The notes below the pieces were generated by a model that did no database searches, was not told the DNA's origin, and saw only the letters and a list, made by a program, of their open reading frames with translations. Below, in pieces: positions 3,239 to 42,530 of a stretch of 64,000 nt of DNA. The stretch is from a virus. Location of the stretch: positions 1-64,000 of IMG/VR virus record IMGVR_UViG_3300031578_004185. The stretch is one strand, 5' to 3'. The translations under genes were made by a program, and so were the position numbers. Positions within the stretch are counted from its first letter, which is position 1. Every line of letters starts with the position of its first letter.

Positions 3239-3753
3239 GTGTGTCATTTAGTCGCGTCTGGGCTATGCCCAATCGCTGGACGTTCCGTATCAAGCCTATT
3301 GCCGAGCTCCTGTCTAGATACGTTGGTAATGGTAAGGGCTGGGTAGACCCGTTTGCTGGAATGAGTAGTCCTGCTGAGACCACTAACGACCTTAACCCGA
3401 AGGTGAACGCGCAGTGGCATCTGGATGCCTTGGACTTCCTGCGGATACTTCCTGTAGATTCCTATAAAGGCTTGTTGTTCGACCCACCCTATAGCCCCCG
3501 CCAAGTTAAGGAGTGTTACGACTCTGTGGGGAGGCACATGGAGCAAGATGATGCCCTTCTTGGTTACAAGAGAGGTCTCTACAAAGAGCAAATCAATCGC
3601 ATTCTACCCCTCGGCGCCATCGTTATCTCTTGCGGGTGGAACTCGGTCGGTATGGGCAAGAAGATGGGGTTCGAGGTTGTTGAGGGCTTGTTAGTCTGTC
3701 ACGGGTCTGATCACAACGATACTATCGTTACCGTCGAGGTCAGAGTGCGATGA
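3235..3753 (+). CDS. Phage-type adenine/cytosine-N4 DNA methyltransferase
   Basis: 172 residues, start overlapping the upstream stop (ATGA). Motif I is WVDPFAG (residues 37-42) and the catalytic motif IV is LFDPPYSPRQV (DPPY at 83-86). The order I then IV and the DPPY tetrad mark an amino-methyltransferase using S-adenosylmethionine. It is short, with little room for a target-recognition domain. It probably protects element DNA from host restriction or marks it for replication. Overlaps the polymerase gene by four bases. Confidence 0.8.
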   Translation: MSVSFSRVWAMPNRWTFRIKPIAELLSRYVGNGKGWVDPFAGMSSPAETTNDLNPKVNAQWHLDALDFLRILPVDSYKGLLFDPPYSPRQVKECYDSVGRHMEQDDALLGYKRGLYKEQINRILPLGAIVISCGWNSVGMGKKMGFEVVEGLLVCHGSDHNDTIVTVEVRVR

Positions 3754-5339
3754 CCTCCATCACCGCCTACGAGATATGGACGGACGACTCTGGTGTCGTC
3801 GGTATCCGTAATACCCAAGGCAAACTCTGCATATCCTTCGACCCCGCCGACCTGCTAGAATTTCTCCGTTACTCTTCCAAGAAAACAGTGCGGGTTTTCT
3901 GGGATCTTGATGCATCTATCGCGTCAGTCCTTAAAACCCTCTCAAAATCGGTTCTGGTGCGTCTGGTGGCGTTTGACGACGACCTTTCGGTGTCGGGGCA
4001 CCAGCTCTACTACCTGCCCGACCGGATGTTCCGTGTTGGCCGTTCTCGTTACTACTCTATTAGACAATTCTGGCCAACCTCTGAGCCGACTCCTGGAACC
4101 CTTGAAGAAGTCCAAGCTAAGGCAGACGAACTAGCCGAGACTCTCACCGATTGCGGCATGGGCGACTTCACCCGCTTGGTATCCCCCATATCCGTGTTCG
4201 AGGAGACCGAGCTGGGGCAACAGACCTATAACTCTATTCCTAAGGGCTACGAGATACCGCCGTCCTGCTTCGAGTGCTTGGAATATGCGTCCAAGTGTGA
4301 TAAACGAGAGTGGGTATCAGCATACCAGCTCGGTCATTGGGTAGGGGGCGAGATCTGGGACTACGACGTGAACTCGATGTACCCTTCCGTAGCATCCAAC
4401 TTGTTCAATTTACACGAGATGGAGATGTGGAAGTCGGACAAGTTCGGGTCCCGAGAGCAGGGTGCTTACTACGGTTTCCTGCGAGGACGCCTCTACCTTG
4501 ACCCGTCCTCACCGACTATTCACTGCTCCCCTATTATTGCTGATCTTGAGCGGCTCCCCGGCAACCCCGCCGGAGACTTCGGGGACGACTACCCTCTCAC
4601 TCTGGACGAACTTCGCCTTATCCAGCGCAACGGCTGGGGGGAGTTCCGTATGAAAGACGGCTGGTTCTTGAAACCTTACGCTGGTGTCCGCCCTACCAGA
4701 CCCTTCAAGGAGATTATGGATCATCTCTACCAACAACGCTATAAGTCCGAGCTGGTTAGTTCTATTATAAAGGGTGTCGCTAATCAGCTAATCGGGAAAC
4801 TCATTGAGACCCGCGTAGATGGTGATTATGGTAAGTTGAGAAACGATATTTACCACGCTTTAATATTGTCCCAGGCGAGAGTAAAAGTAGCCGAGTTCCT
4901 ACTCAATAACGATGTCCAGAAGGACGAGCTGGTAGCCGTGCAGACTGATGGTGTCCGTATGACCAAGTTCGTTCCGGTGAAGGGCAACGGTATGGGGAGT
5001 TGGCGGTGTAATGGAAGCCAAAGCACAATTGTCGCTTCGCCTTACCGAGTTTTCTGTGGTGACAAGAAGCCTGGTCATTTGACTCATGATATGCTTGTGT
5101 CGATGATACAGGAACATCCTCTCTCAAAATACTATGGAACAAACGTCAAGCATCGTTTAACTTTGCGCCAAGCACTTCAGATAGGAGATATAGCGTTAGT
5201 TGGTACAATTGATAACTTACCTGCACATATTGATTTACTGGCGCTCACTCGCGAGCAAAACAGGAACTTTTCTCGTTTCCCCCAAACTGGCTCAAGTCTA
5301 CTTAGCAACCAGTACCAATCCACCCCAATAATTCTTTAG
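3750..5339 (+). CDS. Family B DNA polymerase, phi29/protein-primed-like
   Basis: 529 residues, slightly shorter than phi29 polymerase (575). Motif A is WDYDVNSMYPSVA (residues 203-215, metal-binding Asp204/206). Motif B is KGVANQLIGK (341-350). Motif C is VAVQTDGVR (Asp400) rather than the usual DTDS. The N-terminal 200 residues show no clear ExoI DxE; VFWDLDAS (49-56) is the nearest acidic motif, so proofreading may be degenerate. A second copy of the last 60 residues lies at 6816-7004. The upstream basic protein is the terminal-protein candidate. The polymerase assignment is firm; protein priming is inferred. Confidence 0.88.
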   Translation: MTSITAYEIWTDDSGVVGIRNTQGKLCISFDPADLLEFLRYSSKKTVRVFWDLDASIASVLKTLSKSVLVRLVAFDDDLSVSGHQLYYLPDRMFRVGRSRYYSIRQFWPTSEPTPGTLEEVQAKADELAETLTDCGMGDFTRLVSPISVFEETELGQQTYNSIPKGYEIPPSCFECLEYASKCDKREWVSAYQLGHWVGGEIWDYDVNSMYPSVASNLFNLHEMEMWKSDKFGSREQGAYYGFLRGRLYLDPSSPTIHCSPIIADLERLPGNPAGDFGDDYPLTLDELRLIQRNGWGEFRMKDGWFLKPYAGVRPTRPFKEIMDHLYQQRYKSELVSSIIKGVANQLIGKLIETRVDGDYGKLRNDIYHALILSQARVKVAEFLLNNDVQKDELVAVQTDGVRMTKFVPVKGNGMGSWRCNGSQSTIVASPYRVFCGDKKPGHLTHDMLVSMIQEHPLSKYYGTNVKHRLTLRQALQIGDIALVGTIDNLPAHIDLLALTREQNRNFSRFPQTGSSLLSNQYQSTPIIL

Positions 5340-5358
5340 AAAAATCTTTGGTTACCCC

Positions 5359-5387
5359 TTGACAAATGTTCAGTAGTATGCTATGCT
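5359..5387 (+). promoter_or_regulatory. Sigma70-type promoter, leaderless HTH gene
   Basis: TTGACA (5359-5364), 17 bases, TATGCT (5382-5387). The HTH gene's ATG starts seven bases after the -10 box with no ribosome binding site, implying a leaderless transcript. Confidence 0.85.
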
Positions 5388-5393
5388 ATTTGT

Positions 5394-5561
5394 ATGGACA
5401 TTAAAGAGGTTCGCAAGCAGTTGGGAATGACTTCTCAGGACTTGGCTGTAGTTCTCGGTGTATCTGTTGCTACTGTGAGTCGCTGGGAGACCGGGAAGCA
5501 CAAGCCTTCCAAGTTGGCTCTGTTGCGTCTGAAGGAGTTGATCGACAAAATGAAAACTTGA
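5394..5561 (+). CDS. XRE-type helix-turn-helix regulator, copy 1
   Basis: 55 residues, a minimal Cro/C1-type HTH. MTSQDLAVVLGVSVATVSRW carries the scaffold-recognition helix pair, followed by ETGKHKPSKLALLRL. It probably binds operators near its own promoter. A diverged second copy is at 7049-7228, each directly downstream of a copy of the polymerase C-terminus. Confidence 0.85.
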   Translation: MDIKEVRKQLGMTSQDLAVVLGVSVATVSRWETGKHKPSKLALLRLKELIDKMKT

Positions 5562-5628
5562 TGGTTGCCGTGACTTGATTTCGTGTGGCTTGAGGTTCCT
5601 TGTATTCAATCGGTTTTTATTAAGCTAA
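5556..5628 (+). repeat. Repeated leader element, copy 1
   Basis: Begins ACTTGATGGTTG (5556-5567) and ends TTAAGCTAA (5620-5628), overlapping the end of the HTH gene. The same two boxes at almost the same spacing (64 versus 65 bases) recur at 6286-6359. Both copies lie just before a gene with its own ribosome binding site. Confidence 0.65.
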
Positions 5629-5657
5629 ATTAAGCAAAAAGTAGAAGGAGGCATTTT

Positions 5658-6275
5658 ATGCCAACAGCAATACCAGTATATTTTTGGGAAGCCGAAGTCG
5701 AGGTTGAAACAAATGACTTAGCCTTTTCTCCACAGACTAATACCGAAGGTCGAGGGGCATTGGCGAAGCGGATATTCACAGCAGACTGGCTCCACGATGG
5801 TCAGGTCTGGTTCAGTCCGTCCAAGAGGCTAGGAGGGTGGCTGAAGTCGCAGTTGCCACTGGCTAGGTCAACCTATGCTAACCAGATGGCTGCGGTCAAG
5901 GTCTTCCCCGCAGATGGTGATGGGGAGTATGTCCTTATTGCCGAAGTGAGCGAGTTGGTTGGAGGCAATAATCCTCTACCTATGGCTCATGTGCTACCGA
6001 AGGGGTTGTCGTGTCCTTACTGGACATATATTAACGTCCCACAGGAGCGTGGGACTGGGACGAGGGTTGCCCCAACTTATTGGTATGAGTTGCATAAACC
6101 CGTTGTCCACCGAGTCCGCATCCTGAGCTTTGCTAGGGGCATTAGCCCTGAGATTGTGAAAGAGGCCCTGAGCAAGCTGGGCAGAGCTACCGGGATTGGC
6201 GATAAACATAGTGTTGGGAAGGGCAGATTCAAGTTGGTGAAGTTTGAATATAAGCAAGAGAAATTGGCACTTTAG
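5658..6275 (+). CDS. 205-residue protein with Gly-rich C-terminal motif, unknown
   Basis: GGAGG site before the ATG. The C-terminal segment LGRATGIGDKHSVGKGRFKL resembles the glycine-rich loop ending ferredoxin-like/RAMP-type and some phage nucleic-acid-binding proteins. That resemblance is from memory of the motif style and is weak. It sits in an accessory block between two copies of the polymerase tail, beside a nuclease-like gene. Confidence 0.6.
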   Translation: MPTAIPVYFWEAEVEVETNDLAFSPQTNTEGRGALAKRIFTADWLHDGQVWFSPSKRLGGWLKSQLPLARSTYANQMAAVKVFPADGDGEYVLIAEVSELVGGNNPLPMAHVLPKGLSCPYWTYINVPQERGTGTRVAPTYWYELHKPVVHRVRILSFARGISPEIVKEALSKLGRATGIGDKHSVGKGRFKLVKFEYKQEKLAL

Positions 6276-6285
6276 GATACTTGAG

Positions 6286-6359
6286 ACTTGATGGTTGAGT
6301 GTGGTACGCAGTTCAGTGTCGCGTGTCTCCTTGGATTGTACTGGGTTGTGTTAAGCTAA
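6286..6359 (+). repeat. Repeated leader element, copy 2
   Basis: ACTTGATGGTTG (6286-6297) and TTAAGCTAA (6351-6359) match the element at 5556-5628 in order and spacing. The sequence between the boxes is only partly similar. It precedes the ATG at 6383. Confidence 0.65.
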
Positions 6360-6382
6360 GCAAAATATTACCGAGGTTGGAA

Positions 6383-6808
6383 ATGACGGAAAACGAGATA
6401 AACGAGAAGGTCAAAGAGTGGTTGACTAGCCAAGGGTACGTCTATAAGGGTGTCCTAAATGCCAAGCCTAAAGAGGGTGCTAATCCGAATGGCTATGGTC
6501 AAGTAGCAGTCCCCGACGGAACTAGGGATGTTCTTATTGACCATACCGGACACAAAGATAGACCTGTTGACCTTATTTGGATAGAAGCTAAAGGTTCAGG
6601 CATCGGATTGTCTATGCTCCTTCAGGGGTTCGCCAGAGTTGGCTACGCCGTTTATCATGGGGGCGGGCGAGGGTTACTTGCCTGTCCTGCTACCGAGTTT
6701 GATACGATGTTCGCCCAAAGGGATTTTCTGAAGGCTATCGGAGTCGCCAGTGAGAGGTCTTTGGGACTGCTGGATGGAGAGTCCGGGAGAGTTGAGTGGC
6801 TGACCTAA
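6383..6808 (+). CDS. PD-(D/E)xK-like protein, possible nuclease
   Basis: 141 residues from MTENEINEKVKEWL; GAGGTTGG precedes this ATG, and the frame is open upstream without a site. The acidic helix is followed by TRDVLIDH and VDLIWIEAKGSG, which matches the D...(E)xK arrangement of restriction-like nucleases (IEAK as the ExK element). A C-terminal LLQGFARVGYAVYHGG segment follows. It may cut or bind DNA. The family is not certain, and a catalytically dead fold is possible. Confidence 0.55.
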   Translation: MTENEINEKVKEWLTSQGYVYKGVLNAKPKEGANPNGYGQVAVPDGTRDVLIDHTGHKDRPVDLIWIEAKGSGIGLSMLLQGFARVGYAVYHGGGRGLLACPATEFDTMFAQRDFLKAIGVASERSLGLLDGESGRVEWLT

Positions 6809-6815
6809 GCAACTT

Positions 6816-7004
6816 ATGGGAGTTACACTGAGACAGGCGATCCAGCAGGGGGACGTCAGCAAAGTGGGGGAGCTGGACGATCTACCTGCTCACTTGGATC
6901 TGATAGGGATTACTAGGGAGCAGAACAGGTACTTCCCGAAGCTCCCTAAGACAGGTAGGGCGTTGCTGAACGGGAGGTACCAGTCGAAGGCAGTAGTCCT
7001 CTAG
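6816..7004 (+). pseudogene. Second copy of the DNA polymerase B C-terminal region
   Basis: 62 residues, starting at TLRQAIQQGD after MGV. By hand alignment, about 33 of 59 residues are identical to the last 59 residues of the polymerase encoded at 3750-5339. There is no convincing ribosome binding site. It may be a remnant left by recombination with a related element, or a stand-alone small protein retained after duplication. It ends with a stop at the same point as the full polymerase and is followed, like it, by a promoter and an HTH gene. Confidence 0.75.
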
Positions 7005-7009
7005 GGGTA

Positions 7010-7038
7010 TTGACAAACACTAAAGCCTGTGATAAGGT
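7010..7038 (+). promoter_or_regulatory. Promoter of HTH copy 2
   Basis: TTGACA (7010-7015), 17 bases, TAAGGT (7033-7038), a weaker -10 box. The ATG is about four bases from the predicted start of transcription, again nearly leaderless. Confidence 0.7.
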
Positions 7039-7048
7039 GGTAGGTAGC

Positions 7049-7228
7049 ATGAGAGCAGACGATATCCGAAGAATAAGGCTCAGTTTGAGTATGTCCCAGC
7101 AGCGATTCGCCGAGAGGCTGGGGGTCAGCATTACCACCGTGAACAGATGGGAGCGTGGTCGCTCTAACCCCTCTCCTCTTGCTCTGACACGGTTGCGAAG
7201 GATGCAGCGGAAGGTGGTGGTGGAATGA
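7049..7228 (+). CDS. XRE-type helix-turn-helix regulator, copy 2
   Basis: 59 residues beginning MRADDIRRIRLSLSMS. It contains QQRFAERLGVSITTVNRWER, a textbook XRE HTH, then RSNPSPLALTRLRRMQ. Related in layout to the HTH at 5394-5561. The different recognition helix (ITTVNRW versus VATVSRW) suggests related but not identical operators. Confidence 0.85.
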   Translation: MRADDIRRIRLSLSMSQQRFAERLGVSITTVNRWERGRSNPSPLALTRLRRMQRKVVVE

Positions 7229-7857
7229 CCAATCCTGTATCAATCAGCCCCAGTTCGTTCTCGGATTCCTTTCTGCTAAAGCGGTCTATGGAGTACGAGA
7301 TCCCCGCGGACACCGAGAGGCGTTCCAAGTTCTCGGTATCCGGTTTCCCCACAAAGTTACTTAACGCTGTCAACTATACTATTCCCAAGAGATTGGATGG
7401 CAAGTGGCGGAAGAGCATCGCCAACACGGAGCGGTTCCTGTTGAGCATCGGCATTCCTTTGCTGGACAAGGCGACCGAGAAGTGTTCTATCTTTAGAGAA
7501 CTGATGGCAGAGGCTGTTGACACGGATGATGACGTCAAGCAAAACTACCTCCGCTCAATGCGCTTCCTCTATTCGGTTGATGACATGCGGATTACCGGTG
7601 GGAGAGAGATAAACCAAGGGGGTACGCAAGTGCAGTGCCTTGAGAGGGATGTTCAAGCTGTGAAGGAAGTACAGGTGCGGTTGGGGATGACGGGAGTAAC
7701 GCAATCGGCACTGGTTGTCCTTTCTCTGGTATGGACACTGTCCACTGACAACGATAACCAGGTAGTGTCTATACCGATACAGAAGATATGCCATCGGGTG
7801 GTGACACAGTTCCGTGAGAAGGTAACCCTTTGGGAAGCGGAGTTGCGTCGCGGGTAG
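7225..7857 (+). CDS. 210-residue protein, unknown
   Basis: The start overlaps the HTH stop (ATGA), so the two are co-expressed. It is a mixed alpha-rich soluble protein with several basic patches and no recognised motif. It sits immediately before the origin-like non-coding region, so a replication or copy-control role is possible on position alone. Confidence 0.65.
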   Translation: MTNPVSISPSSFSDSFLLKRSMEYEIPADTERRSKFSVSGFPTKLLNAVNYTIPKRLDGKWRKSIANTERFLLSIGIPLLDKATEKCSIFRELMAEAVDTDDDVKQNYLRSMRFLYSVDDMRITGGREINQGGTQVQCLERDVQAVKEVQVRLGMTGVTQSALVVLSLVWTLSTDNDNQVVSIPIQKICHRVVTQFREKVTLWEAELRRG

Positions 7858-19054: not shown

Positions 19055-19948
19055 TTACTTTGGTTTCCTGTAAATATTACCGACTTGTCCTGTCTCTTTG
19101 AACCACTCATATGTATGGCGTAGACCATCTTCCCATTTTACCTTAGCTTTCCACCCAACCTCTTCCAACATCTTATTGGCTGATATCTCTTCGTGGAAGG
19201 TCTGCCCGATACGCTGTGGAATGTTTACAATCTCCGATATTGACCCAGTGATTTCCTTGATATCCTGCGCTGTCTGGATAGCTGATACCATTCTACTCGT
19301 AGTCATGTTCCATGTATTGTTAATCTTGCCCGATTGGTATAAGGCAACGATGGCATCTGCCAAATCCCTAATATACGTTAGCGTCCTAGTCTGCTTGCCG
19401 TCCCCATGCACCGTTATTGGTTCCTTTCGCAGTGCTTGCCCCAAGAAGATGTGAGGGGCCAGTGCCGACCTCATTCCCTCACCGTAGATAGTGGCGAACC
19501 GCATGAAGTTGTATTTCAGTCCGAATGAGTGATGCAGTCCTCGTATCACGTTCTCTCCCGCCAGCTTGGTGCAGGCATATATTTCGGCGGGATTAGGTAA
19601 AGATTCCTCGGTAGACGGATGGTGGTCTTGGTTACCGTATACGCAGCATGTGCTTGCGTAGTACAGTTTGGCTTTTGCTTCTAGGCAGGCGATGGCGACG
19701 TTCCAAGTGCCGCCAACGTTAATCCCCATAGTCTCTGCAGGATGAGCGTAAGCCCAGTTCAGGTCGGCAATTGCCGCCAGATGGAACACAATGTCCTTGC
19801 CCCGAATGGCTTCCCGTACCTGCTCAAGGTTGCAAATGTCCTGTCCATCTGTGATATCAAACGGTGTAACATTGTCTCCTAATTGTGATAATCTACCCGC
19901 TAGATGTTTCCCGATAAACCCCTCTCCCCCGGTAATGAGTACTTTCAT
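19055..19948 (-). CDS. NAD-dependent sugar-nucleotide epimerase/dehydratase
   Basis: 297 residues from MKVLITGGEGFIG, with AGGAGG upstream; longer in-frame starts lie in the gap. Extended SDR family: Rossmann GGEGFIG at residues 7-13, STCCVYG and the catalytic YACTK (YxxxK), then a C-terminal substrate domain. It interconverts NDP-hexoses for glycan assembly; the exact sugar cannot be told. Last gene of the glycan cluster. Confidence 0.88.
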   Translation of the reverse strand: MKVLITGGEGFIGKHLAGRLSQLGDNVTPFDITDGQDICNLEQVREAIRGKDIVFHLAAIADLNWAYAHPAETMGINVGGTWNVAIACLEAKAKLYYASTCCVYGNQDHHPSTEESLPNPAEIYACTKLAGENVIRGLHHSFGLKYNFMRFATIYGEGMRSALAPHIFLGQALRKEPITVHGDGKQTRTLTYIRDLADAIVALYQSGKINNTWNMTTSRMVSAIQTAQDIKEITGSISEIVNIPQRIGQTFHEEISANKMLEEVGWKAKVKWEDGLRHTYEWFKETGQVGNIYRKPK

Positions 19949-19979
19949 TGTCTCCGTCCTCCTGCTTTTATTTTCCAAG

Positions 19980-21245
19980 TTATACGTCATACCAGATCTG
20001 TAGCGTGAACAGTCCCCAAATCACGTTTGCTAGACTTGTAGCCGCGACCCCGCTACCTATCCTGCCTGACTTCAACGCTCCTGTTATCCTACTTAGTGAT
20101 TGCTTCCTGCATATCTCGTTCAGTAGTTTCCCGTTTTCAAGTCTATCCAGCACCATCGGCTTAAGTTCTCTGCTGTTGAGCCAGTCGGCTATAGGGGTGC
20201 CGAAGCCCGCCTTCTTTCTCCAGACTACTGAGTCCGGCAACAAGTGTTCAGCGGCCTTTCTTAACATATACTTATCCTTTCTTAGCTTGTTAGGCAACCC
20301 TGCGGCAAGGGCGACTATTCCGTCATCTACAAGGGGCGATATTATCTTGGGAGTGAATCTGTCGAGCTTGTTAATGAACTTGCCTGGTATTAGGTTGAGG
20401 TAATCCATGGCTAGTACCTTTTTGTATAGATCCGGCTCGTTTATTGTCCTGTATAAATAGTTTATTTTTGTGCCCTTTTCAAGAAGCCACTCCACATTCT
20501 GCTTGCTCATTGCTGTGGTTGGGTAAAGTATCATCTTGTCCAAGTTGGTTTGTAGTGGGAATAGCAGTATCCTTTCAATTCTATTCCTGTACCCCGCAGT
20601 CGGGTTGCCGTTTATCAGCAGTTGTCCCGCTCGACGTATTATTGCCGGTATTTTGTTCATTATCCTGATGTATTTAGCGAAGTGATGCCAAGGGTAGCCG
20701 CCAAATATTTCATCACCCCCATCGCCACATATTACTAAATCGCAGTACTCCTTTGCCGCCTGACACAGGAAGTAGTTGTTGATTGCTCCGGCGTCCCCCA
20801 GTGGTTCATCATAGATCTTAGTAATCTCGCTGATGTTCTCGGCTACCATCTTAGCCGTGATTGTTACTTTATGGTGCTTCAGCCCGATATGTTTGGCAAT
20901 TACAGATGCTTCATCAAACTCAGAGTGAGTTTCGAACTCCACGGTGAAGGCACCTCCTAGCTTGTTTCCCAGCACTTCCTTGCCTAGGCAGCCCACAATA
21001 GATGAATCTATGCCCCCTGAGAGAAATAGTCCAAATTTGTTACCTTGTGCTTTGTTCTTGATTGAACTCCTTATTGAGTTGCATAGCTCTTGTGCCACCG
21101 CTGATTCACTTAGTCCTGCAGATGCTCTAGGTTGAGGTATAGCCCATTCCTTGACTTCTCTGTGTAGGATATCAGAACCTATTGGGTACTGGTACATCAG
21201 AAAAGCCGGGACATTAAAGTTCACGAATCTGGTATCCAGTTTCAT
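19980..21245 (-). CDS. Asparagine-synthase-type amidotransferase lacking the glutaminase domain
   Basis: 421 residues from MKLDTRFVNF; ATG overlaps the upstream stop with AAAGGA before it. PP-loop ATP site LFLSGGIDSS, then YDEPLGDAGAINNYFL and CGDGGDEIFGGY, as in the asparagine synthase C-terminal domain. The N-terminal Cys2 glutaminase half is absent, so ammonia or another amine must be supplied. In surface-glycan loci such enzymes amidate uronic acids or similar groups. Member of the cluster by gene overlap. Confidence 0.82.
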   Translation of the reverse strand: MKLDTRFVNFNVPAFLMYQYPIGSDILHREVKEWAIPQPRASAGLSESAVAQELCNSIRSSIKNKAQGNKFGLFLSGGIDSSIVGCLGKEVLGNKLGGAFTVEFETHSEFDEASVIAKHIGLKHHKVTITAKMVAENISEITKIYDEPLGDAGAINNYFLCQAAKEYCDLVICGDGGDEIFGGYPWHHFAKYIRIMNKIPAIIRRAGQLLINGNPTAGYRNRIERILLFPLQTNLDKMILYPTTAMSKQNVEWLLEKGTKINYLYRTINEPDLYKKVLAMDYLNLIPGKFINKLDRFTPKIISPLVDDGIVALAAGLPNKLRKDKYMLRKAAEHLLPDSVVWRKKAGFGTPIADWLNSRELKPMVLDRLENGKLLNEICRKQSLSRITGALKSGRIGSGVAATSLANVIWGLFTLQIWYDV

Positions 21246-22063
21246 TTTCCTTTTACCCCCAGTCCTCTTATTCCTGTTGCTGATCCATCCAGCATCCGAT
21301 ACGATATCCGTATGTCTTTGAGACCCGCCTGCTCGAACCACTCTTGGATTTCGTTGGGGTTGTAGTATCTTGCCTTTGGAGCCGACATCATATCAAAGAC
21401 GTCGTTCCACTTGGTTTTGAACGGAAAGTGGGTGTAGTGTCTGACGAAGGGTATCCTCGTTCTAAGTCTGCCAACCAGCTCAAATGCCAGTGCACCCACA
21501 AATGCCAAAGGATAAAGTACTCTGAGTGGCAGTCGTGTGGTGATTCTCCGCATTGGCTCGAACAGGTGTATGGTTAGACCGTTATCCTTTCTGCCGTACA
21601 CCCAAACGGATATAGTACCCCCCGGCTTTACCGTCTTCACCAGTCCCCTGAAGCCCTCCTGTGGATCAGGAAGATGGTGGAGTACTCCGATGCAAAAGGT
21701 ATAGTCGAACCTGTTGTCCCACTCTGTCGGCAAATTGTATATGTCACCCCGCATGACTCTGGCATTCAGCCCCTTTAGGTTTTCTGTTGCTGACTCTACC
21801 GCCCCCTTACCAATGTCGAAGGCAACGACCTCTGCCCCGTATTTAGCAGCAAAATAGGAATGCCTACCTGCTCCGCAACCGGCATCCAAGACTGTCTTCC
21901 CTTTGAAGAACTCCTTGTTTATTGGGGCAATGTAGCCTAAGAAATTCTCCTCATACTCCGGAAAGATATCACTGAATCTTGCCCACTCAAAACCGAAGCT
22001 GGACGCCGTGCGTTCCTTCAGTTGCTCATTTGCCCGTACAGCTTTCGTACTACGTTCTCCCAT
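21242..22063 (-). CDS. SAM-dependent methyltransferase
   Basis: 273 residues. Class I motif I TVLDAGCGAGRHSYF, acidic residue after strand 2 (VVAFDIG), and FDYTFCIGVLHHLPDP as the motif IV-like segment. The hydrophobic stretch LYPLAFVGALAFELVG may contact the membrane. Probably methylates a glycan or lipid carrier. Overlaps the upstream glycosyltransferase end by about 45 bases. Confidence 0.85.
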   Translation of the reverse strand: MGERSTKAVRANEQLKERTASSFGFEWARFSDIFPEYEENFLGYIAPINKEFFKGKTVLDAGCGAGRHSYFAAKYGAEVVAFDIGKGAVESATENLKGLNARVMRGDIYNLPTEWDNRFDYTFCIGVLHHLPDPQEGFRGLVKTVKPGGTISVWVYGRKDNGLTIHLFEPMRRITTRLPLRVLYPLAFVGALAFELVGRLRTRIPFVRHYTHFPFKTKWNDVFDMMSAPKARYYNPNEIQEWFEQAGLKDIRISYRMLDGSATGIRGLGVKGK

Positions 22064-23076
22064 GTATATTGCCCTGCCTTTCTCTTGTTATTTTCGGCCA
22101 TGACTTTTGACCAATTGCTGTCACTCAGTATCAGCTTAATCGCTTTAGATGTAGATGCTGCGCTGTTGGGTACGGTTAGTGTACCGTTAACCCAATCTTC
22201 TACTATTTCCGGTATTCCGCATACTCTGGGGGCTACTACAGGTAGTCCGCTCGCCATTGCCTCCAAGATTGCTACGGGAAAGCCTTCAGAGAGGCTGGTG
22301 TTTACCAGAACATCGGCGGCGCTCAAATAAGTCGGTATATCGGTGTTGCTCACGTGCCCGCAGAATACCACCCGTCCATCGGCCTGCCTCCTGAGATGAT
22401 TTGCTTCCGGTCCATCCCCAACTAAGATGTACGTGTTCCTGTTGTCCATTTTAGCTGCTTCGACGAAGACACGCAAGTTCTTTTCGGGGCGACATCTTCC
22501 AACCGCAATTACAGCCTTCCCTTCAGCCGGCAAACTCAGCTTCCTTCTTGCTTTGCTCCGGGAAAGTACACCAAACCTGCTAGTGTCTATGCCGTTAGGG
22601 ACGACCTCGACTGGTTTGTGTGTATACTTGCTCATTTCATTTGCCATGTCTGTTGTCTGTGCAATGACTCTGCTGGCATTGTTAAATAGTAGCCGCGATA
22701 TCAATCCTTTTCCAATCCAGTTCACGTATATTTCACCGCGCCCGTAGACAATATATGGTATCCTTGCCATCTTGGATGCTACGAAGGCTGTCAGAGCCAT
22801 TTGAGTACCTTGTGCGTGAATTATGTCCGGTCGTACTCTTAGTATAGCTCGTACTGCTCTTGGAAGGTAAAGTAGCCCGAACAGGTATGGCACGTTAACC
22901 GACTTGATCGTGTGAACAGTTACACCCCCAATTTCACACTTAACATGCTTAGTTGCTCCCGCAATCACATGAACTTCATGTGACCCCGATGCACATTTAG
23001 CTATTGATACTGTAGCTATCTCAGTTCCACCATTACAGAGTGGGGGGAGACCAGAAACAAGTATAGCGATCCTCAT
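22018..23076 (-). CDS. GT4 family glycosyltransferase
   Basis: 352 residues. N-terminal acceptor domain with NGGTEIATVSIAKCA. The C-terminal nucleotide-sugar domain has AVGRCRPEKNL and the E-x7-E signature in SEGFPVAILEAMASGLPVVA. A GT-B retaining enzyme adding a sugar to a growing glycan at the inner membrane. Start overlaps the previous stop. Confidence 0.9.
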   Translation of the reverse strand: MRIAILVSGLPPLCNGGTEIATVSIAKCASGSHEVHVIAGATKHVKCEIGGVTVHTIKSVNVPYLFGLLYLPRAVRAILRVRPDIIHAQGTQMALTAFVASKMARIPYIVYGRGEIYVNWIGKGLISRLLFNNASRVIAQTTDMANEMSKYTHKPVEVVPNGIDTSRFGVLSRSKARRKLSLPAEGKAVIAVGRCRPEKNLRVFVEAAKMDNRNTYILVGDGPEANHLRRQADGRVVFCGHVSNTDIPTYLSAADVLVNTSLSEGFPVAILEAMASGLPVVAPRVCGIPEIVEDWVNGTLTVPNSAASTSKAIKLILSDSNWSKVMAENNKRKAGQYTWENVVRKLYGQMSN

Positions 23077-24044
23077 CTGTGTACCTCATGGTATCGTTTA
23101 ACGTAAGACTCGACCATGGTAAAGTAGCTTCTGCCTTCATGCTCTTCTGCTTGCGCTATTTCGACATACTTCTCCACGATGTCAGGGTTATTTGTGTCCA
23201 GTCCCAAAACCACCATATAAAATACAGCTTCGTCGTAGAATCTCCCTGTTGTTGCTTTGTATATGGCTTCTGCCCTGTCATATAACCCAAATAACTGATA
23301 CAGCCGAGCCTTGTATATTGGGAAAAATTCAGCATCAGAATATTCATTTAAATAATAGTCGCTTACGCTGGACGCTTTATGTATATCCATTAAGTTACTG
23401 CCCTTCCGCAGAGAGTATAGTTCCAACCACCAATCAATATACTGCTTGCTGTAACATCTGTATATTAGATTGTGTACACTGCTTAAGTACGACATATTCG
23501 ATATACTCAGATTAGGACTATAGTTGTTAACACAATCGCCACTGTAATCACCAGACTTGACAGTGTATCTGCCACCCTTTAAAATAACCTCACAATTAAA
23601 CGCCGGATCGTAGTACCTCTCCTCCTCATTAATATACACTACCGTAAATGTGTGGCAAGGGAACAATATACTTCTGGCTTCTATTCCTTTTATTGCTAGT
23701 AGCTTGGTTAAGAGGAACGCCTTTTGGTCACACCATCCGATACCACGTACCAAGTCAAATAGACAGGTATAATCGATTGCACTACTATCCCCCACGCCCA
23801 TCCAAGGCAGGTTTTGCTCTTCGTTAACATACACCCATGAATTCAGATTCCCTACAACTTCTGTTTTCGTTAACTCGGTGTTGTCCACAACCCTATCTGC
23901 TACCCTGTGATAGGCAAACTCGGATATCATATTATCTGCGGTGACATCTAATAGTAGCCACGTCAACGGGAATACTAAGTATAAAATTGTTATACAGATG
24001 ATCACTATAGACGTTATGCGGGTTATCCGTATAGCTGCCTTCAT
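23073..24044 (-). CDS. Membrane-anchored transglutaminase-like protein
   Basis: 323 residues. N-terminal membrane anchor (residues 8-34), then VRGIGWCDQKAFLLTKLLAI (Cys), FPCHTFTVVYI (His) and RYYDPAFNC (Asp), the C-H-D order of the transglutaminase-like fold. The rest is a helical C-terminal region. Outside the membrane it could be a cysteine protease, amidase or cross-linker. Overlaps both neighbours by four bases, so it is part of the glycan operon. Confidence 0.78.
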   Translation of the reverse strand: MKAAIRITRITSIVIICITILYLVFPLTWLLLDVTADNMISEFAYHRVADRVVDNTELTKTEVVGNLNSWVYVNEEQNLPWMGVGDSSAIDYTCLFDLVRGIGWCDQKAFLLTKLLAIKGIEARSILFPCHTFTVVYINEEERYYDPAFNCEVILKGGRYTVKSGDYSGDCVNNYSPNLSISNMSYLSSVHNLIYRCYSKQYIDWWLELYSLRKGSNLMDIHKASSVSDYYLNEYSDAEFFPIYKARLYQLFGLYDRAEAIYKATTGRFYDEAVFYMVVLGLDTNNPDIVEKYVEIAQAEEHEGRSYFTMVESYVKRYHEVHR

Positions 24045-25906
24045 TCTAACCCTTCCTTCATCAAGATATGAACTTCATCGTTTTTCCAGATTTCACGATA
24101 TCCTTGCTGTTTAGCTAATTCCACGAGGTCACAGTTCAACCTGTATATTGCTCCGTTGCCAAAGGCAAAAGGTTCCTCATGAAGTGCATCCCTGAGCAGC
24201 AGTATATTGGCTCGCTGGGCACTGAAGTCGCCCGACAAGATTTCATCCGTCAGGGAAATCACTTTGGCGTTGTCGACACCCATGGTTGCAGGAGGGTAGA
24301 ATACCGGGTCTGTGCCTATAATTCGATGATTATATTCCTGTACTATGGCCAAGCTCCCCATTTCGTCTTCAGTGAAAGCGTAGCGGGCAATTAGGTTTGG
24401 GGACAGTGTTCTATTGGTCATGTTGGATACCAAGCCGATAGCAGATAAGAATGTTATTACAACCACCAACATTGTTACCGATACCGCCCATCGGTACCCT
24501 GTTGATGCCAGAGATACTATAGCTACCCCCAGCGGTATTGCCAGAAGCACTTCGGCAAAATACCACCACCGATGTTCCAGCACTGGAAAGTCAAACAGGA
24601 GCGGAAAGAATCCAATAGACAGTGTAGCCAAGCCCAATACCACAAAAGTCTTCTGTATTGGCGCGGTAGTCCGTCTCAGCATTATAAGACAGCCTAAGAC
24701 CGCTAAGCCGAAATACAAGAACATTCCTACGCTGTCTACTACCATTTCGCTTAACGTACTACCACCTTTGTATTCAAAGACAGTTTCAGATGTCTGCTCC
24801 ACTACATAAATTGTTCCATGAATAGGGACAGGTCCGTTCTCGGTTGTGTAACGCAGTGCGTCATCTGCTGGTGTAAAATAAAACAACATTGCTACTACTA
24901 ACACCCCAAGTAGTGGGATAACCGAGAGTTCTCCTGTTTTTTTCGTCTTGGCCTTTACACTCAGTGTCTTGTTAAATAGTGTCGGTAGTACCCACAGGCA
25001 AGCAAACGTTCCCAGAACCCATACAGCGGCGATAAGATGGGTGGCGTATGCTGTCAAGACAATCAGTGCTATGGGTACAAGTAACCACTTCGTGCTCCCT
25101 TTGCTCATTTTCAGCACCAAGTACGCTACCACCAAGCCATACGTTGCTCCCGTTGCATTTGGTATAATCCACCCCCCGAAGAATACCACCCAATTGGCAC
25201 TCGCTGCCATTAGACCCGCTACGCAACCCACTTTCGTGTTCCACAATATTCGCCCTATCAGAAAGGTAAATAAGACAATCCCAGCCGTCTGAAAACTACC
25301 TACGAAGATCAGAGAAGCCCACTTATAGCTAATGTCCAACAATCCCATAACAGATTTCAAGTATATGTGCATCAGGGAGTATCCACTACCTATAGATAAG
25401 AAACTCGGTTGCCCTGCGGTTATCGCTTGATGTATCCACGGATCCAGCCCAATCAGGCTACCCGGAAACAGGAGGTGTTCCGTCCAGATATGAGACAAGC
25501 CTATAATGCAGGCTATTCCCACTACAATCCATGGTTGTATTTTGCCTTCGCTCTTCAGTACACCGTAGAAAGCCAGACTTGTTGCACAAGCCATTAGTAC
25601 ATAATAAGCTGTCGGCTTAATGTACTGCTCGGAGCGGAGAACAAAAGCTAGCCAAGCCGACAAGCAGAGGAGGAGCGATCCAGCAATGAATATCCATGAA
25701 ACTGTCCTATCATTGCCTAGGTCACCTTCTCTCGTCTCACGTCGTCTTAGTATTAGGTATAAGCCGATACTGCCCAAACCCACGCCTACTGCAACCAGAT
25801 ATACGGGGTGGAACTCTTTGCATACCAGTATTACTGATGAGGTAGCCATGACCACTAGTCCCGCAACCGCTGCTACAATATCTGGGTATCGTAATAGCTT
25901 GCTCAT
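24041..25906 (-). CDS. Multi-pass GT-C type glycosyltransferase/oligosaccharyltransferase-like protein
   Basis: 621 residues from MSKLLRYPDIVAAV; ATG overlaps the upstream stop. About a dozen hydrophobic helices. LIGLDPWIHQAITAG in an outside loop recalls the Asp-containing first loop of GT-C enzymes (STT3/PMT-like). The C-terminal soluble part ends the protein. It probably uses a lipid-linked sugar on the outer face. Substrate and exact family are uncertain. Confidence 0.7.
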   Translation of the reverse strand: MSKLLRYPDIVAAVAGLVVMATSSVILVCKEFHPVYLVAVGVGLGSIGLYLILRRRETREGDLGNDRTVSWIFIAGSLLLCLSAWLAFVLRSEQYIKPTAYYVLMACATSLAFYGVLKSEGKIQPWIVVGIACIIGLSHIWTEHLLFPGSLIGLDPWIHQAITAGQPSFLSIGSGYSLMHIYLKSVMGLLDISYKWASLIFVGSFQTAGIVLFTFLIGRILWNTKVGCVAGLMAASANWVVFFGGWIIPNATGATYGLVVAYLVLKMSKGSTKWLLVPIALIVLTAYATHLIAAVWVLGTFACLWVLPTLFNKTLSVKAKTKKTGELSVIPLLGVLVVAMLFYFTPADDALRYTTENGPVPIHGTIYVVEQTSETVFEYKGGSTLSEMVVDSVGMFLYFGLAVLGCLIMLRRTTAPIQKTFVVLGLATLSIGFFPLLFDFPVLEHRWWYFAEVLLAIPLGVAIVSLASTGYRWAVSVTMLVVVITFLSAIGLVSNMTNRTLSPNLIARYAFTEDEMGSLAIVQEYNHRIIGTDPVFYPPATMGVDNAKVISLTDEILSGDFSAQRANILLLRDALHEEPFAFGNGAIYRLNCDLVELAKQQGYREIWKNDEVHILMKEGLE

Positions 25907-27135
25907 TTTCCGTTTCTTGTAACTTGCTGAAACAATTCCATCCACCGTGTACCGGTAACCTCTGGATTACAGTATGTCTCAATCCACTCCCTGCCCCTCC
26001 TGCCTATATCATTCCTCAAATCTTCATCTTCAGCGAGACGGTGTATGCTTTTAAGTATTTCGTCATCGTCGTGAGCGTTGATAATAGGAGGTATCTCAGG
26101 ATACTGTGCGTCCTTGACAATTGGTGCTACATAGGATACTACAGGAGTTCCACATGACATGGCTTCCACGGGTACCAGAGCAATAACACCAACGACAAAC
26201 TGATCCAAGACTATATCGGCTATGTTGTACAGGCAACACATTTCAGGTCCCGGAACGGGATCGAGCCATACAACATACTTTGATATCTCCAACTCGTGTA
26301 CCAAGTCCACACTGGACTCCACGTCCCATCCCTTTCTTATAACAAGCAATTTGGCGCGTCCCTTGTAAACGTCTACAAACTTGGCGAATGCTCTGAACAC
26401 CTTGTCGTTGCCTTTGCGGTCGGTAAAGGGTCTATTTAGCCACGACTGTCGAGGTGGATGAAACAGAATGAAGTCGCATCCAAACCCACTGTACGCCTTT
26501 TGCTTTTCCTGTCGCCTCTGTTGGTCTTCCATTGGTTTGAACAGCTGCGTATCTATGTTGTGGGGGAAGCAGTGCAGATTCTTCAGTCCTACCAGCTTGG
26601 CGATCTCTATTTGGTGGGGCATGAGTACAGTAGCTTTAGCCTTCCGCAATGACCCCGTCAGGTGATACTTTACGAGGAAGTGGAATATTCTCTGCCCCAA
26701 GCTGAACGGACCATTATCCGTTCCCGACCAACCCTGCACTGCAAGCTGATCGAGGTCCGACCCGTAGGAATAAAAGATGAATGGCTTCCCCGTCCAACGC
26801 ATCCACATTGGAGCGTACCCGGAACACACAATAACATCAAACCTTCTAGCGAAGTCAATAAGTGTTTTCAGCCTTGCTAGGTATCCGATTGGATTCTTGT
26901 ATGGAGCGAAGTGCGGTAGGTGTAGGGGGTGAACCCAATCGGAGGCATCTGTGTCATCATTGTGCCAGCTAGGAAGACTGTCATCTGGGACAATGGAGTC
27001 GAGTCCCAATATTGTGTGAGCGTCAATTCCCGTCTGCCTCAGGCGTTTTGCACACACATATAGCCAGTTCTGTGTGTTTAGTGGATCACAAAATAATACT
27101 TTCAACTTGTCACTTTGTTGTCCTGTCCCACCCAT
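25903..27135 (-). CDS. GT-B glycosyltransferase, GT4-like
   Basis: 410 residues. KVLFCDPLNTQNWLYVCAKR opens the acceptor domain. The second domain has LVIRKGWD and VGVIALVPVEAMSCGTPVVS, an E-containing donor loop like GT4. Less typical than its two relatives in the cluster. Confidence 0.8.
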   Translation of the reverse strand: MGGTGQQSDKLKVLFCDPLNTQNWLYVCAKRLRQTGIDAHTILGLDSIVPDDSLPSWHNDDTDASDWVHPLHLPHFAPYKNPIGYLARLKTLIDFARRFDVIVCSGYAPMWMRWTGKPFIFYSYGSDLDQLAVQGWSGTDNGPFSLGQRIFHFLVKYHLTGSLRKAKATVLMPHQIEIAKLVGLKNLHCFPHNIDTQLFKPMEDQQRRQEKQKAYSGFGCDFILFHPPRQSWLNRPFTDRKGNDKVFRAFAKFVDVYKGRAKLLVIRKGWDVESSVDLVHELEISKYVVWLDPVPGPEMCCLYNIADIVLDQFVVGVIALVPVEAMSCGTPVVSYVAPIVKDAQYPEIPPIINAHDDDEILKSIHRLAEDEDLRNDIGRRGREWIETYCNPEVTGTRWMELFQQVTRNGK

Positions 27136-27461
27136 TATAATTGATTACCCGCTTGTAAGTCTTTATTAAAAGCTATTATACCGCACAGCTTGCAACACTG
27201 CTTGTCGTCACCATAAGATTCCCATACATGTTTGTGTGGTTCCGAAAATAGCGATGGTATAGGTTTGCCGTCAAACACACTACTCAGAATTGCGTCAAAG
27301 TACTGACGCTCTTTTTCCTTCTTGCTTTCATAATCATTGTGCCTTCTTGTGTCATCTTCTAAATGCTTAGCCTGATTTGGGCAGACACCGTAGTGGTTTA
27401 GCCTAGCACCGCATCGATGACAGAATCTATCTATTGGTTGAGGGTACTGAAGATAGGGCAT
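27135..27461 (-). CDS. Cys-rich zinc protein within the glycan cluster
   Basis: 108 residues from MPYLQYPQPIDRFCHRC; GGGAGTG is placed correctly for this ATG. FCHRCGARLNHYGVC and CCKLCGIIAF supply two Cys pairs, with HKHVW nearby. Part of a zinc-ribbon cassette embedded between sugar genes. Overlaps its neighbours. Confidence 0.65.
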   Translation of the reverse strand: MPYLQYPQPIDRFCHRCGARLNHYGVCPNQAKHLEDDTRRHNDYESKKEKERQYFDAILSSVFDGKPIPSLFSEPHKHVWESYGDDKQCCKLCGIIAFNKDLQAGNQL

Positions 27462-27630
27462 CTGTTTCACTCCCTTCATCTTTATGACTTGGTGCGTAGG
27501 TTCTCCCGCACTTAGGACAACGGTATCGTTGAACCTGCTTGCGTCCAGACCAAGATTTTCCCATCTTGTGCATCTTGGAACCACACTCAGGACAGAAAAC
27601 TGCCCTATCCTTGCTGTCTCCTATTTTCAT
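27427..27630 (-). CDS. Zinc ribbon protein, near-duplicate of 62409-62603
   Basis: 67 residues. CPECGSKMHKMGKSW and QRYRCPKCGRTYAP. Over the 35-residue ribbon, 31 residues match the protein at 62409-62603. Each of the two genes lies downstream of a promoter containing ACACAGCACAGCAC (as read on the + strand). The start was chosen at MKIGDSKD; an upstream in-frame ATG would overlap the preceding basic gene. Confidence 0.8.
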   Translation of the reverse strand: MKIGDSKDRAVFCPECGSKMHKMGKSWSGRKQVQRYRCPKCGRTYAPSHKDEGSETDALSSVPSTNR

Positions 27631-27640
27631 CACCGATTTC

Positions 27641-27787
27641 CTAATACCAACAACGCCGCAAGTGTTCGGCAGTAGCCTTCCTTGCAAGCTCGTCATTCTG
27701 TCTTTGTTGTCCCCTTTTGTTCCTCTTAATTGAGGATTTATTGAACTTCTTTTTCACCGATTTCGCTTTCGATGCCCCTGTCTTCAT
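27641..27787 (-). CDS. 48-residue very basic protein
   Basis: MKTGASKAKSVKKKFNKSS with AGGAGG upstream. Lys/Arg-rich helix. Resembles the basic protein at 260-418 in length and composition. Confidence 0.6.
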   Translation of the reverse strand: MKTGASKAKSVKKKFNKSSIKRNKRGQQRQNDELARKATAEHLRRCWY

Positions 27788-27817
27788 TGTATACTCCTCC
27801 CTGACTTCCTGACATGC

Positions 27818-28066
27818 TTATTTGTTGTGTGGATTATACCACCGAGAGGTTTCTTTACCGTACATTAGTTCACACGCTCGTCTCCGCTGTCGGGACAGTT
27901 GTATACTTCCACGACCCCACCGCATACGTCTATAGGAAAGAACGGTTGAACTAATTATAAAGAAAGCAATAACAGCACCGAAAACAATGAGAACTACTCC
28001 GTAATAGATTGCCCATTCCCCGTCTCCTGAGAACCAGTACCCAATATTACATAGGAAGTCACCCAT
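27818..28066 (-). CDS. Single- or two-pass membrane protein with basic tail
   Basis: 82 residues, AGGAGGTG site. Hydrophobic segment YYGVVLIVFGAVIAFFIISS followed by YRRMRWGRGSIQLSRQRRR. First gene after the promoter at 28101-28130. Unknown role. Confidence 0.65.
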   Translation of the reverse strand: MGDFLCNIGYWFSGDGEWAIYYGVVLIVFGAVIAFFIISSTVLSYRRMRWGRGSIQLSRQRRRACELMYGKETSRWYNPHNK

Positions 28067-28100
28067 TTCGTCTTCACCTCCTTGCTAATCTATTGTTACT

Positions 28101-28130
28101 ATTAAAGCACACAGCACAGCACTTTGTCAA
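28101..28130 (-). promoter_or_regulatory. Promoter with repeated operator-like box
   Basis: Read leftward: TTGACA (28130-28125), 18 bases, TTTAAT (28106-28101). The spacer holds the 14-mer ACACAGCACAGCAC (+ strand 28109-28122), identical to 63985-63998 in the promoter at the right edge. It is an internal promoter inside the glycan cluster. Confidence 0.75.
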
Positions 28131-28148
28131 GTATTAAGGTTTCCCTTC

Positions 28149-29099
28149 CTATGTTACCCACAACCGCTTGAACAGTACCGCGTCGAAAACTGTAGCCAGT
28201 CCCAGAATCCCAAGAACCCCCACACAAATGCCCAAAGGAATCCTAAGAACTTTCCTGGTACCCTTGTGCCGCAACAAGGAGACCGCCTTCCCCTTTACGC
28301 CTGCAATCTCTGTTGATTCTGGTAGGAAATCACTGTTTACGCAACAGTTATAACCAAAGAATACGGCGTTAATCCATCCTCGCCCGGACGGATACAGTCT
28401 ACCGCAAGTCTCCTTAGAGTCGAGGTATCTCTTGAACATCTTAGGAGTTGTAAAGTTAAGCTCGTCGACAAAGTTCGGGTCCCGCCCGAACAACTTCACA
28501 TATCCCCTAGCTATACTTCTAGTGATATACGGTATCCAGAACATGTTATAGTGCCCCTCGTAAATGCTGTTGTAATTGGGGACATTTGCCCACAGGAGTC
28601 CCCCCGGCTTCAATACACGGATAGCTTCCTTCATTGACATATCCAAGTCCCTAACGTGCTCCAAGACAGCTACACTGATTACCGCGTCGAAGGTATTATC
28701 GTCAAAGGGAAGGTTCTCCGCCGTGGCATCAAGTAGTCTAGTTCTCGCATTGGTTATTAAATTCGACTCCAGTAGCTCAATAGCTCTTTCGTATCTGCCC
28801 TCGAAGCCGGCACTTGCTCCAGGTTCAATTCCCACTACATCCAAGCCGAGTTTCAACATGCAACAAAGAGAGAAGCCATAGCCGCTACCGATTTCGAGTA
28901 CCTTCAGTGTTTTGACTTTTTCCCTACCAAGGAGCCTCTCTAGCATTGTTAGAGGATACCTGCAACCACTTACGGACTTCCTGATAGCTTCCATGGAGTC
29001 ACGCTTCCCTACTCGCCAAAAGAAATCAGCCTCAGCGTCCGCCATTTTGTGGAGCAACTGATCTGGAGTTACCACGTCGTAGCCACTCACCTCCTGCAT
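28149..29099 (-). CDS. SAM-dependent methyltransferase with C-terminal membrane helix
   Basis: 316 residues. LKVLEIGSGYGFSLCCML is motif I, VVGIEPG the acidic loop, and FDAVISVAVLEHVRDLDM the motif IV-like region. The C-terminus IPLGICVGVLGILGLATVF is a probable membrane anchor. Likely modifies a membrane-linked glycan. Confidence 0.85.
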   Translation of the reverse strand: MQEVSGYDVVTPDQLLHKMADAEADFFWRVGKRDSMEAIRKSVSGCRYPLTMLERLLGREKVKTLKVLEIGSGYGFSLCCMLKLGLDVVGIEPGASAGFEGRYERAIELLESNLITNARTRLLDATAENLPFDDNTFDAVISVAVLEHVRDLDMSMKEAIRVLKPGGLLWANVPNYNSIYEGHYNMFWIPYITRSIARGYVKLFGRDPNFVDELNFTTPKMFKRYLDSKETCGRLYPSGRGWINAVFFGYNCCVNSDFLPESTEIAGVKGKAVSLLRHKGTRKVLRIPLGICVGVLGILGLATVFDAVLFKRLWVT

Positions 29100-29103
29100 C
29101 TGT

Positions 29104-29340
29104 CTACCTCTTTTTTATCAAGGCATTAACGTAGGATTTCAAATCGTCTCTAATTTCTTGTCTGGTTTTGTGTCCTTTGGTACCATGAGATTTGTATATT
29201 TCGTGTGATAGATGAGCCACATAGTAGCTGGTACCACGTAGTCCGTTCCTCTGCACCCATAGCCTAAGCCTCTTACGAACGCAGAATCTTTTGTTGGAGC
29301 TGTCAAATACTGCTATCTCTGCGAAACTCGTGTTACTCAT
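29104..29340 (-). CDS. 78-residue basic protein, unknown
   Basis: MSNTSFAEIAVFDSSNKRFC, then Arg/Lys-rich helices ending VNALIKKR. The start overlaps the aminotransferase stop. A small basic protein within the sugar genes, perhaps part of the same regulatory layer as the other tiny proteins. Confidence 0.55.
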   Translation of the reverse strand: MSNTSFAEIAVFDSSNKRFCVRKRLRLWVQRNGLRGTSYYVAHLSHEIYKSHGTKGHKTRQEIRDDLKSYVNALIKKR

Positions 29341-30512
29341 TTTCTGTACTTGGTGGTAACTTTCTTCACGACATCGATTACGTCCCGCACATCTTGTACG
29401 GTCATGGCAGGGTACAATGGCAATGATATAATTCTATCGGATGCATACTCGGCGTTCGGATAGTCTCCTCGCTTATGTCCATACAGTTTACGGTAACCTT
29501 CCTGCAGGTGCATTGCCCTAAAGTGGATACCAATCCCCACGTTCTCAGCCTGTATGGCGTTCATGACAACGTCCCTGTCCACCGTAAGTCGGTCCGTGTC
29601 TACTACGACAACATAAAGGTGGTAGGAGTGTCGTATATAACTCTTCCGCTCAAGGGGTCTAACTTCAGGTATCTCCTTGAACGCCTCATCATACATCTCG
29701 GTATATCTCTTGCGTACTTCCCAGAACTCTTCCACCTTCTTCAGTTGACAGATACCTATAGTTGCCAAGATATCCGGCATGTTATACTTGTACCCCGGAT
29801 AAATGACCTCCCAGTGCTTGTACCCCTCACTTCCATACCGCTTCCAAGCATCTCGGTCTATACCATTAAAGCTGTATGTTCTGGCCAGCTCCGCAATTCG
29901 ACCATCGTTGATAGTTAACATGCCACCTTCGCCAGTGGTTATGTTCTTGGTTGGATAGAAGCTGAAACAGCCAACGTTGCCTATAATTCCTGTCTTCCTT
30001 CCCTTATATTCTGCCTCCAGAGCATGCGCGGAATCCTCTATAACGTAGAGACCATACTTGTCGGCAATATCGTTAATCTCATCCATATCGCACGGGTGCC
30101 CAGCCAAGTGTACTGGAAGTATTGCTTTAGTCCTCTTGGTAATCTTCTCCTCTATCTCGTTTACGTCAATGTTAAGCGTGCCTAGCTCAACATCAACAAA
30201 TACCGGTTTCGCTCTCTGGTGTACGATAGAATTGATCGTGGACGGCCACGTTATTGGAGTGGTGATTACCTCATCGCCGTCCCCTATCCCCCGTGCTACC
30301 AGTGCCAGATGCAGGGCAGCTGTGCAGGAACTAACAGCAACAGTATGCTTACACCCCTTAAACTCAGCAAAATCCTTCTCAAACTGTAGTGTCCTTGCTC
30401 CCGTAGTGAGCCACCCCGACCTTAGTACATTCAGTACTGCATCTTCTTCCTCTTTGCCCAGTAGTGGTCTACAGAACGGTAGGAAATCTTTTCTTGTCGG
30501 CTGATTATCCAA
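29337..30512 (-). CDS. DegT/DnrJ/EryC1 family PLP-dependent sugar aminotransferase
   Basis: 391 residues from a TTG at 30512 with AAGGGGGAA six bases upstream; earlier in-frame codons overlap the previous gene. VSSCTAALHLALVA, VIEDSAHALEAEY and the Schiff-base lysine in FYPTKNITTGEGG identify the family. It transfers an amino group to a keto-sugar nucleotide made by the adjacent dehydratase. Confidence 0.9.
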   Translation of the reverse strand: MDNQPTRKDFLPFCRPLLGKEEEDAVLNVLRSGWLTTGARTLQFEKDFAEFKGCKHTVAVSSCTAALHLALVARGIGDGDEVITTPITWPSTINSIVHQRAKPVFVDVELGTLNIDVNEIEEKITKRTKAILPVHLAGHPCDMDEINDIADKYGLYVIEDSAHALEAEYKGRKTGIIGNVGCFSFYPTKNITTGEGGMLTINDGRIAELARTYSFNGIDRDAWKRYGSEGYKHWEVIYPGYKYNMPDILATIGICQLKKVEEFWEVRKRYTEMYDEAFKEIPEVRPLERKSYIRHSYHLYVVVVDTDRLTVDRDVVMNAIQAENVGIGIHFRAMHLQEGYRKLYGHKRGDYPNAEYASDRIISLPLYPAMTVQDVRDVIDVVKKVTTKYRK

Positions 30513-30523
30513 AATATTCCCCC

Positions 30524-39567: not shown

Positions 39568-39741
39568 TTATCTTCTTATCCTCCTTCGTGCTTTATTCAA
39601 GTGCCTTTGCGTTTTGGTAGTCTTTATTTTAGGCAACTCCCTAGTTTTTATCACCTTACCACCCCGGACAGTTTGTCTCACCCGCTTCCCCGATGAGTAG
39701 GTTCTTACTCTATGGGTTACTCCACCAAACATAATAGACAT
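39568..39741 (-). CDS. 57-residue very basic protein
   Basis: MSIMFGGVTHRVRTYSSGKR... ending HLNKARRRIRR. Start overlaps the ATPase stop (TAATG). Probably DNA binding or packaged with the genome. Confidence 0.65.
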   Translation of the reverse strand: MSIMFGGVTHRVRTYSSGKRVRQTVRGGKVIKTRELPKIKTTKTQRHLNKARRRIRR

Positions 39742-41319: not shown

Positions 41320-41351
41320 CGGTGGTTGACCCCCTTACCATCATTCTGCTC

Positions 41352-42513: not shown

Positions 42514-42530
42514 TGTTCAATACCTCTTGC

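Follow-up and report, generated by a model that had tools for sequence, protein, structure and literature searches.

Why does the C-terminal end of a viral DNA polymerase gene occur a second time, as a small open frame of its own, downstream of the gene and beyond three others? The question is raised by a locus in the window, i.e., the whole 64,000-nucleotide stretch of DNA analysed, which makes up the opening 64 kb of an IMG/VR virus record of 68,001 bases. The source virus is bacterial or archaeal and unclassified. The features on which the argument turns are listed here; G001 to G004 denote four other records of the same virus group.

3750..5339, plus strand: PolB-like DNA polymerase, 529 aa (phrog_11768, DNA_pol_B_2, motifs, G001 homologue)
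5007..5339, plus strand: putatively foreign part of the polymerase, codons ~420-529, with low third-position GC (change point)
5157..5336, plus strand: tail 1, polymerase residues 470-529 (sequence comparison)
5359..5387, plus strand: promoter-like TTGACA-17-TATGCT before XRE1 (sequence)
5394..5561, plus strand: XRE1, 55-aa HTH_3 regulator (HTH_3 E 3e-13)
5556..5639, plus strand: intergenic direct repeat, copy 1, before gene A, overlapping the XRE1 stop
5658..6275, plus strand: gene A, 205 aa, with a C-terminal Gly-rich loop like that of Cas5/Csm4 RAMP proteins (PADLOC)
6286..6365, plus strand: intergenic direct repeat, copy 2, before gene B
6383..6808, plus strand: gene B, 141 aa, possible PD-(D/E)XK nuclease (VDLIWIEAKG, motif by eye)
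6809..6821, plus strand: right junction, polymerase homology starting ~13-14 bases past the gene B stop
6816..7004, plus strand: tail 2, orphan 62-aa copy of the polymerase C-terminus (ATG, no clear Shine-Dalgarno)
7049..7228, plus strand: XRE2, 59-aa HTH_3 regulator, its stop overlapping the next gene (HTH_3 E 3e-13)
7225..7857, plus strand: 210-aa protein, start overlapping the XRE2 stop, of resident composition (codon usage)

The polymerase matches the phrog_11768 DNA polymerase family with E 6e-7 and Pfam DNA_pol_B_2 with E 0.006 (16 bits, below the 25.8-bit cut-off). Its motifs, read from the sequence, are YDVNSMYP (A), KGVANQLIGK (B) and QTDG (C), the last having QTD instead of DTD, with the first Asp replaced; a structure model was set aside at pLDDT 32. 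It is the divergent member of two polymerases encoded by the genome, the other being a PolA that carries a fused uracil-DNA glycosylase domain (58720-61422).

The relatives available for comparison are few. Scans were made with short peptide patterns, whose reach is close relatives. In 2.9 million viral contigs, patterns from the polymerase (as a single sequence and as an alignment), from its tail and from its core led to one record, G001, while 84,980 genomes, phages and plasmids gave no polymerase relative. G001 encodes the one complete polymerase besides that of the source virus in the collections searched; it is 45% identical over its full length and has a single tail. The PolA of the same record (L007, 2609-6427) carries an insert of ~300-400 residues at a conserved site that looks like an intein. 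Three more records, G002, G003 and G004, were added by scanning with a conserved putative ATPase (39741-40847), which is ~51-54% identical in G001, G003 and G004 and without a match in 50,697 phage records. The ATPase belongs to a conserved, structural-looking block (39741-47604) with proteins in which signal peptides and membrane segments are apparent, and the virus group that shares this block is probably undescribed. G002 is 99.98% identical to 40085-68001 of the source record, a cover that lies outside the right junction; G003 has the order XRE gene, homologue of the gene at 2645 and polymerase N-terminus, and then ends, so that the sequence 3′ of the polymerase is cut off; matches to G004 are confined to the part from 29.3 kb rightwards, and no polymerase was detected in it.

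Several observations concern the genome as a whole. The first 117 bases of the window hold five TGTAATCA iteron-like repeats, and an inverted copy of this stretch, 100% identical, lies at the far end of G002 (L019, 11-127), which runs 11.45 kb past the right end of the source genome. The genome is thus either linear, of ~79 kb, with terminal inverted repeats, or circular with an inverted repeat at this place; G001 and G003 join the two sides without the inverted repeat. A large cluster at 19055-34721 encodes, from translations read by eye, sugar-nucleotide enzymes, glycosyltransferases, methyltransferases and a radical-SAM-like protein, and small, mutually related zinc-ribbon-like proteins are found at 1529-1828, 2328-2489, 27427-27696, 53673-53834, 57347-57544 and 62409-62603.

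The polymerase C-terminus is present twice. Bases 6822-7001, once translated, match polymerase residues 470-529 with 33/60 identities (34/61 with the stop, 50/61 similar; pairwise E 4e-24), and across the full 68 kb record the match has E 2.2e-18 and there are only two matches in all; an earlier note, made from the letters alone, had counted 33 of 59 by hand, and its count holds. No polymerase similarity was detected in any frame upstream of 6822. Comparison with G001 bears on the age of the pair: tail 2 shares 34/60 residues with the G001 tail and 33/60 with tail 1, while tail 1 and the G001 tail share 27/60. Tail 2 is therefore as close to the tail of another virus as to that of its own polymerase, which excludes a recent tandem duplication. 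It is also undecayed, retaining 23 of the 27 residues common to tail 1 and G001, standing apart from the other two tails at no more than 4 of 25 informative sites (p 0.046) and having the shortest branch of the three. Tail 2 is either recently cut off or still under selection.

Each tail copy is followed, ~45-55 bases on, by a small XRE gene, as the same note had seen, and the two products have 25/52 residues in common (48% identical, 54.3 bits). In the 50,697 phage records, XRE1 has a best match of 52 bits and XRE2 one of 48; against this background the pair would probably be mutual best matches beyond chance, by a small margin. The XRE protein encoded upstream of the polymerase in G003 scores 67.8 bits against XRE1 (54.5% identical) and 49.3 bits against XRE2. 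On these alignment scores, the three are the mutual nearest relatives found, and, with the G003 protein closer to XRE1 than XRE2 is, XRE1 is no young copy of XRE2. The promoter, which had been counted as part of the duplicated block, has to be taken out of it. TTGACAAA does stand before both XRE genes, but this 8-mer occurs 9 times in the window against 2 expected, and the regions upstream of the XRE genes show no match beyond it (126 of 1000 shuffles do as well). A common promoter was accordingly rejected as evidence of duplication, TTGACAAA being a genome-wide element.

The two tails differ strongly in composition, with a third-position GC of 0.37 in tail 1 versus 0.72 in tail 2 (p 2e-4). 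Within the polymerase itself, third-position GC changes at codon 420, from 0.61 before it to 0.37 after it (change point LR 10.2, p 0.0005-0.001), the strongest break among the 21 long genes of the record; the runner-up, with LR 9.8, is a surface-type gene with a laminin-G domain. The G001 polymerase has no change point (p 0.58), and amino acid identity between the two polymerases is flat along their length, at 0.41-0.47, so that the breakpoint is unmarked by protein divergence; it would lie at about codons 331-440, its exact place being uncertain. Measured against polymerase codon usage, z is -3.4 for codons 420-469, -3.5 for tail 1, -2.5 for gene A and -2.6 for gene B, versus +2.2 for tail 2, +1.0 for XRE2, +1.0 for the gene at 7225, and +0.7 and -0.3 for two genes upstream. 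A block of odd composition, ~5007-6808, thus lies between two like flanks, although XRE1 is not odd (z -0.2). Low third-position GC also occurs elsewhere in the record, in 5.5% of 110-codon stretches, and the genes from 8178 onward drift toward it too. With the block odd and tail 2 resident-like, the orphan tail belongs with the flanks, and composition, on which the direction rests, suggests that tail 2 is the resident copy and the polymerase's own tail the newcomer.

The genes inside the block have few recognisable relatives. The Gly-rich loop of gene A matches PADLOC Csm4 with E 3e-5, over 39 residues, and its predicted fold was set aside at pLDDT 35; a match to MS2 coat protein (phmmer 9e-6) is an artefact, arising because tandem-dimer constructs are scored two times over, with E 0.5 for each stretch. 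Gene B has no nuclease family match in Pfam, PHROGs, NCBIfam or PADLOC, and neither gene found a match in IMG/VR, GTDB genomes, phages or plasmids, in scans that paired some, not all, genes and collections. The earlier note had missed a second repeat in this region: genes A and B are each preceded by one copy of an imperfect direct repeat, 80-90 bases long (ACTTGATGGTTG ... TTAAGCTAA ... TAAGCAAAA), which scores 48 against a best of 35 in 1000 shuffles and has no third copy in the genome. Since this repeat stands before both genes and its first copy overlaps the XRE1 stop, XRE1, A and B are suggested to form one module. The repeats were also considered as integron attC sites and rejected, with one GTTRRRY core and no matching partner core by eye.

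Altogether, the locus can be read, with moderate confidence, as the footprint left when the virus recombined with a relative, by homology at one end and illegitimately at the other. Before the event, the resident genome would have carried polymerase, XRE2 and 210-aa gene in this order, and the donor segment would have comprised the last third or less of a donor polymerase together with XRE1 and genes A and B. Its pairing with ~codons 331-440 of the resident polymerase would have yielded a chimeric but complete polymerase, and the incoming block, presumably acquired in one event and not in several, would extend from ~polymerase codon 420 through the gene B stop (~5007-6808). At the far end of the block, right after that stop, a non-homologous joint would have connected it to codon 470 of the resident polymerase; the part of the resident gene between the two breakpoints would have been lost, and its last 60 codons and XRE2 would remain downstream as displaced leftovers, tail 2 being a relic. 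The sign of a chimeric polymerase is an indirect one, the significant change point at codon 420, with identity to G001 flat. Against this model, the order polymerase - XRE that it assumes in both parents is documented in the source record only, and in G003 the XRE gene lies upstream of the polymerase. The donor genome is not among the five records found of the group.

This reading keeps much of what the earlier note proposed. That the copies are old, diverged in separate relatives, and that cargo entered by recombination both fit the tail comparison (tail 2 at 33/60 versus 34/60) and the break inside the polymerase. The cargo itself, given there as the two genes A and B, includes both and seems to be larger, holding also the polymerase from ~codon 420, tail 1 and XRE1. 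As for genomes lacking the insert, no XRE gene, A, B or orphan tail was found beside the G001 polymerase, but the gene downstream of it differs from that in the source record, and no clean empty site was seen among the relatives found.

An old tandem duplication, in one lineage, of a unit running from XRE through intervening genes to the polymerase, the second polymerase later eroding, or giving way to A and B, until its last 60 codons were all that was left, is unlikely, yet deserves some weight. Repeating the G003 order (XRE, 2645 homologue, polymerase) would place an XRE gene after each polymerase end, as observed here, and XRE1 is closest to the XRE of G003. However, copies resident side by side for long should match in composition, which the two tails do not, and the stub shows no decay although such a duplication would need to date back roughly to the divergence from G001.

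It is quite unlikely that the 62-aa tail functions as a gene in its own right, either a separate thumb-like or DNA-binding part of the polymerase or a polymerase regulator, kept together with XRE. Its open frame, the ATG at the start of the conserved block and its short branch speak in favour, but it has no Shine-Dalgarno, and a recent cut-off would also give low divergence. The earlier note had named an independent tail gene, conserved in relatives far from the polymerase, as what would count against its view; none was found in the four other group records, all possibly incomplete fragments, or in the IMG/VR scans.

That the composition break is a matter of chance, or a functional feature of the gene end, with the tail copy placed by an unrelated transfer, is improbable: gene 44764-47604 has a similarly strong break, but here the pattern is coherent on both sides of the block. 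The weakest proposal is that the resident polymerase was cut near codon 470 by gene B acting as a free-standing, homing-type nuclease, with repair from a donor co-converting the adjacent polymerase end. It draws on the possible motif seen by eye, on the position of gene B exactly at the right junction and on nuclease genes reported at phage-phage exchange boundaries (PMC10448857), but it has hardly any likelihood given a gene B that matches no nuclease family and is not near the left breakpoint, and an orphan tail that homing, which as a rule restores both flanks, would not leave.

On the reading as one-sided recombination, the locus is a readable scar of mosaic evolution within a gene for replication, in a virus group that has hardly been sampled, and the scar suggests which of the two tail copies is the resident. 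The event appears to be a clear but ordinary sort of viral gene shuffling. It also bears on annotation, since an 'extra' tail-like gene of this kind needs to be checked before it is annotated as a new family.

The closest known process is homology-facilitated illegitimate recombination (HFIR), in which homology acts at one end of the incoming DNA and illegitimate joining at the other (PMC3240628). The one-sided homology proposed here is the same as in bacterial HFIR, but the process is described there for transformation and conjugation in cells, whereas here it would be deduced for a virus from one end product. HFIR would yield a displaced 3′ end, a chimeric polymerase, a new module and an old regulator, as in this locus, and what reads as the displaced resident 3′ end (6822-7001 against polymerase 470-529) does lie at the far border of the insert. 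T4-like phages offer a partial parallel in their free-standing homing endonuclease genes: here, too, a nuclease-like gene is intergenic, next to a replication gene, with a possibly co-converted flank, but an orphan copy of the flank, unexpected in those systems, is present, and the nuclease identity of gene B is putative. In Vibrio T6SS effector clusters, the 3′ end of the old gene is shifted back, and HFIR has been proposed there, as for Rhs loci (PMC5361080). The likeness lies in a new module coming in and the old 3′ end moving downstream together with the small gene that follows it; however, the Vibrio clusters are polymorphic toxin modules selected for diversity, whereas this locus involves a polymerase and a regulator and a single displacement. 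By analogy with the orphan modules behind Rhs and T6SS effectors, one might speculate, as a long shot, that the polymerase end is a site of repeated exchange, at which blocks swap the C-terminal part together with a linked XRE gene and the displaced tails and regulators are kept as functional stand-alone genes.
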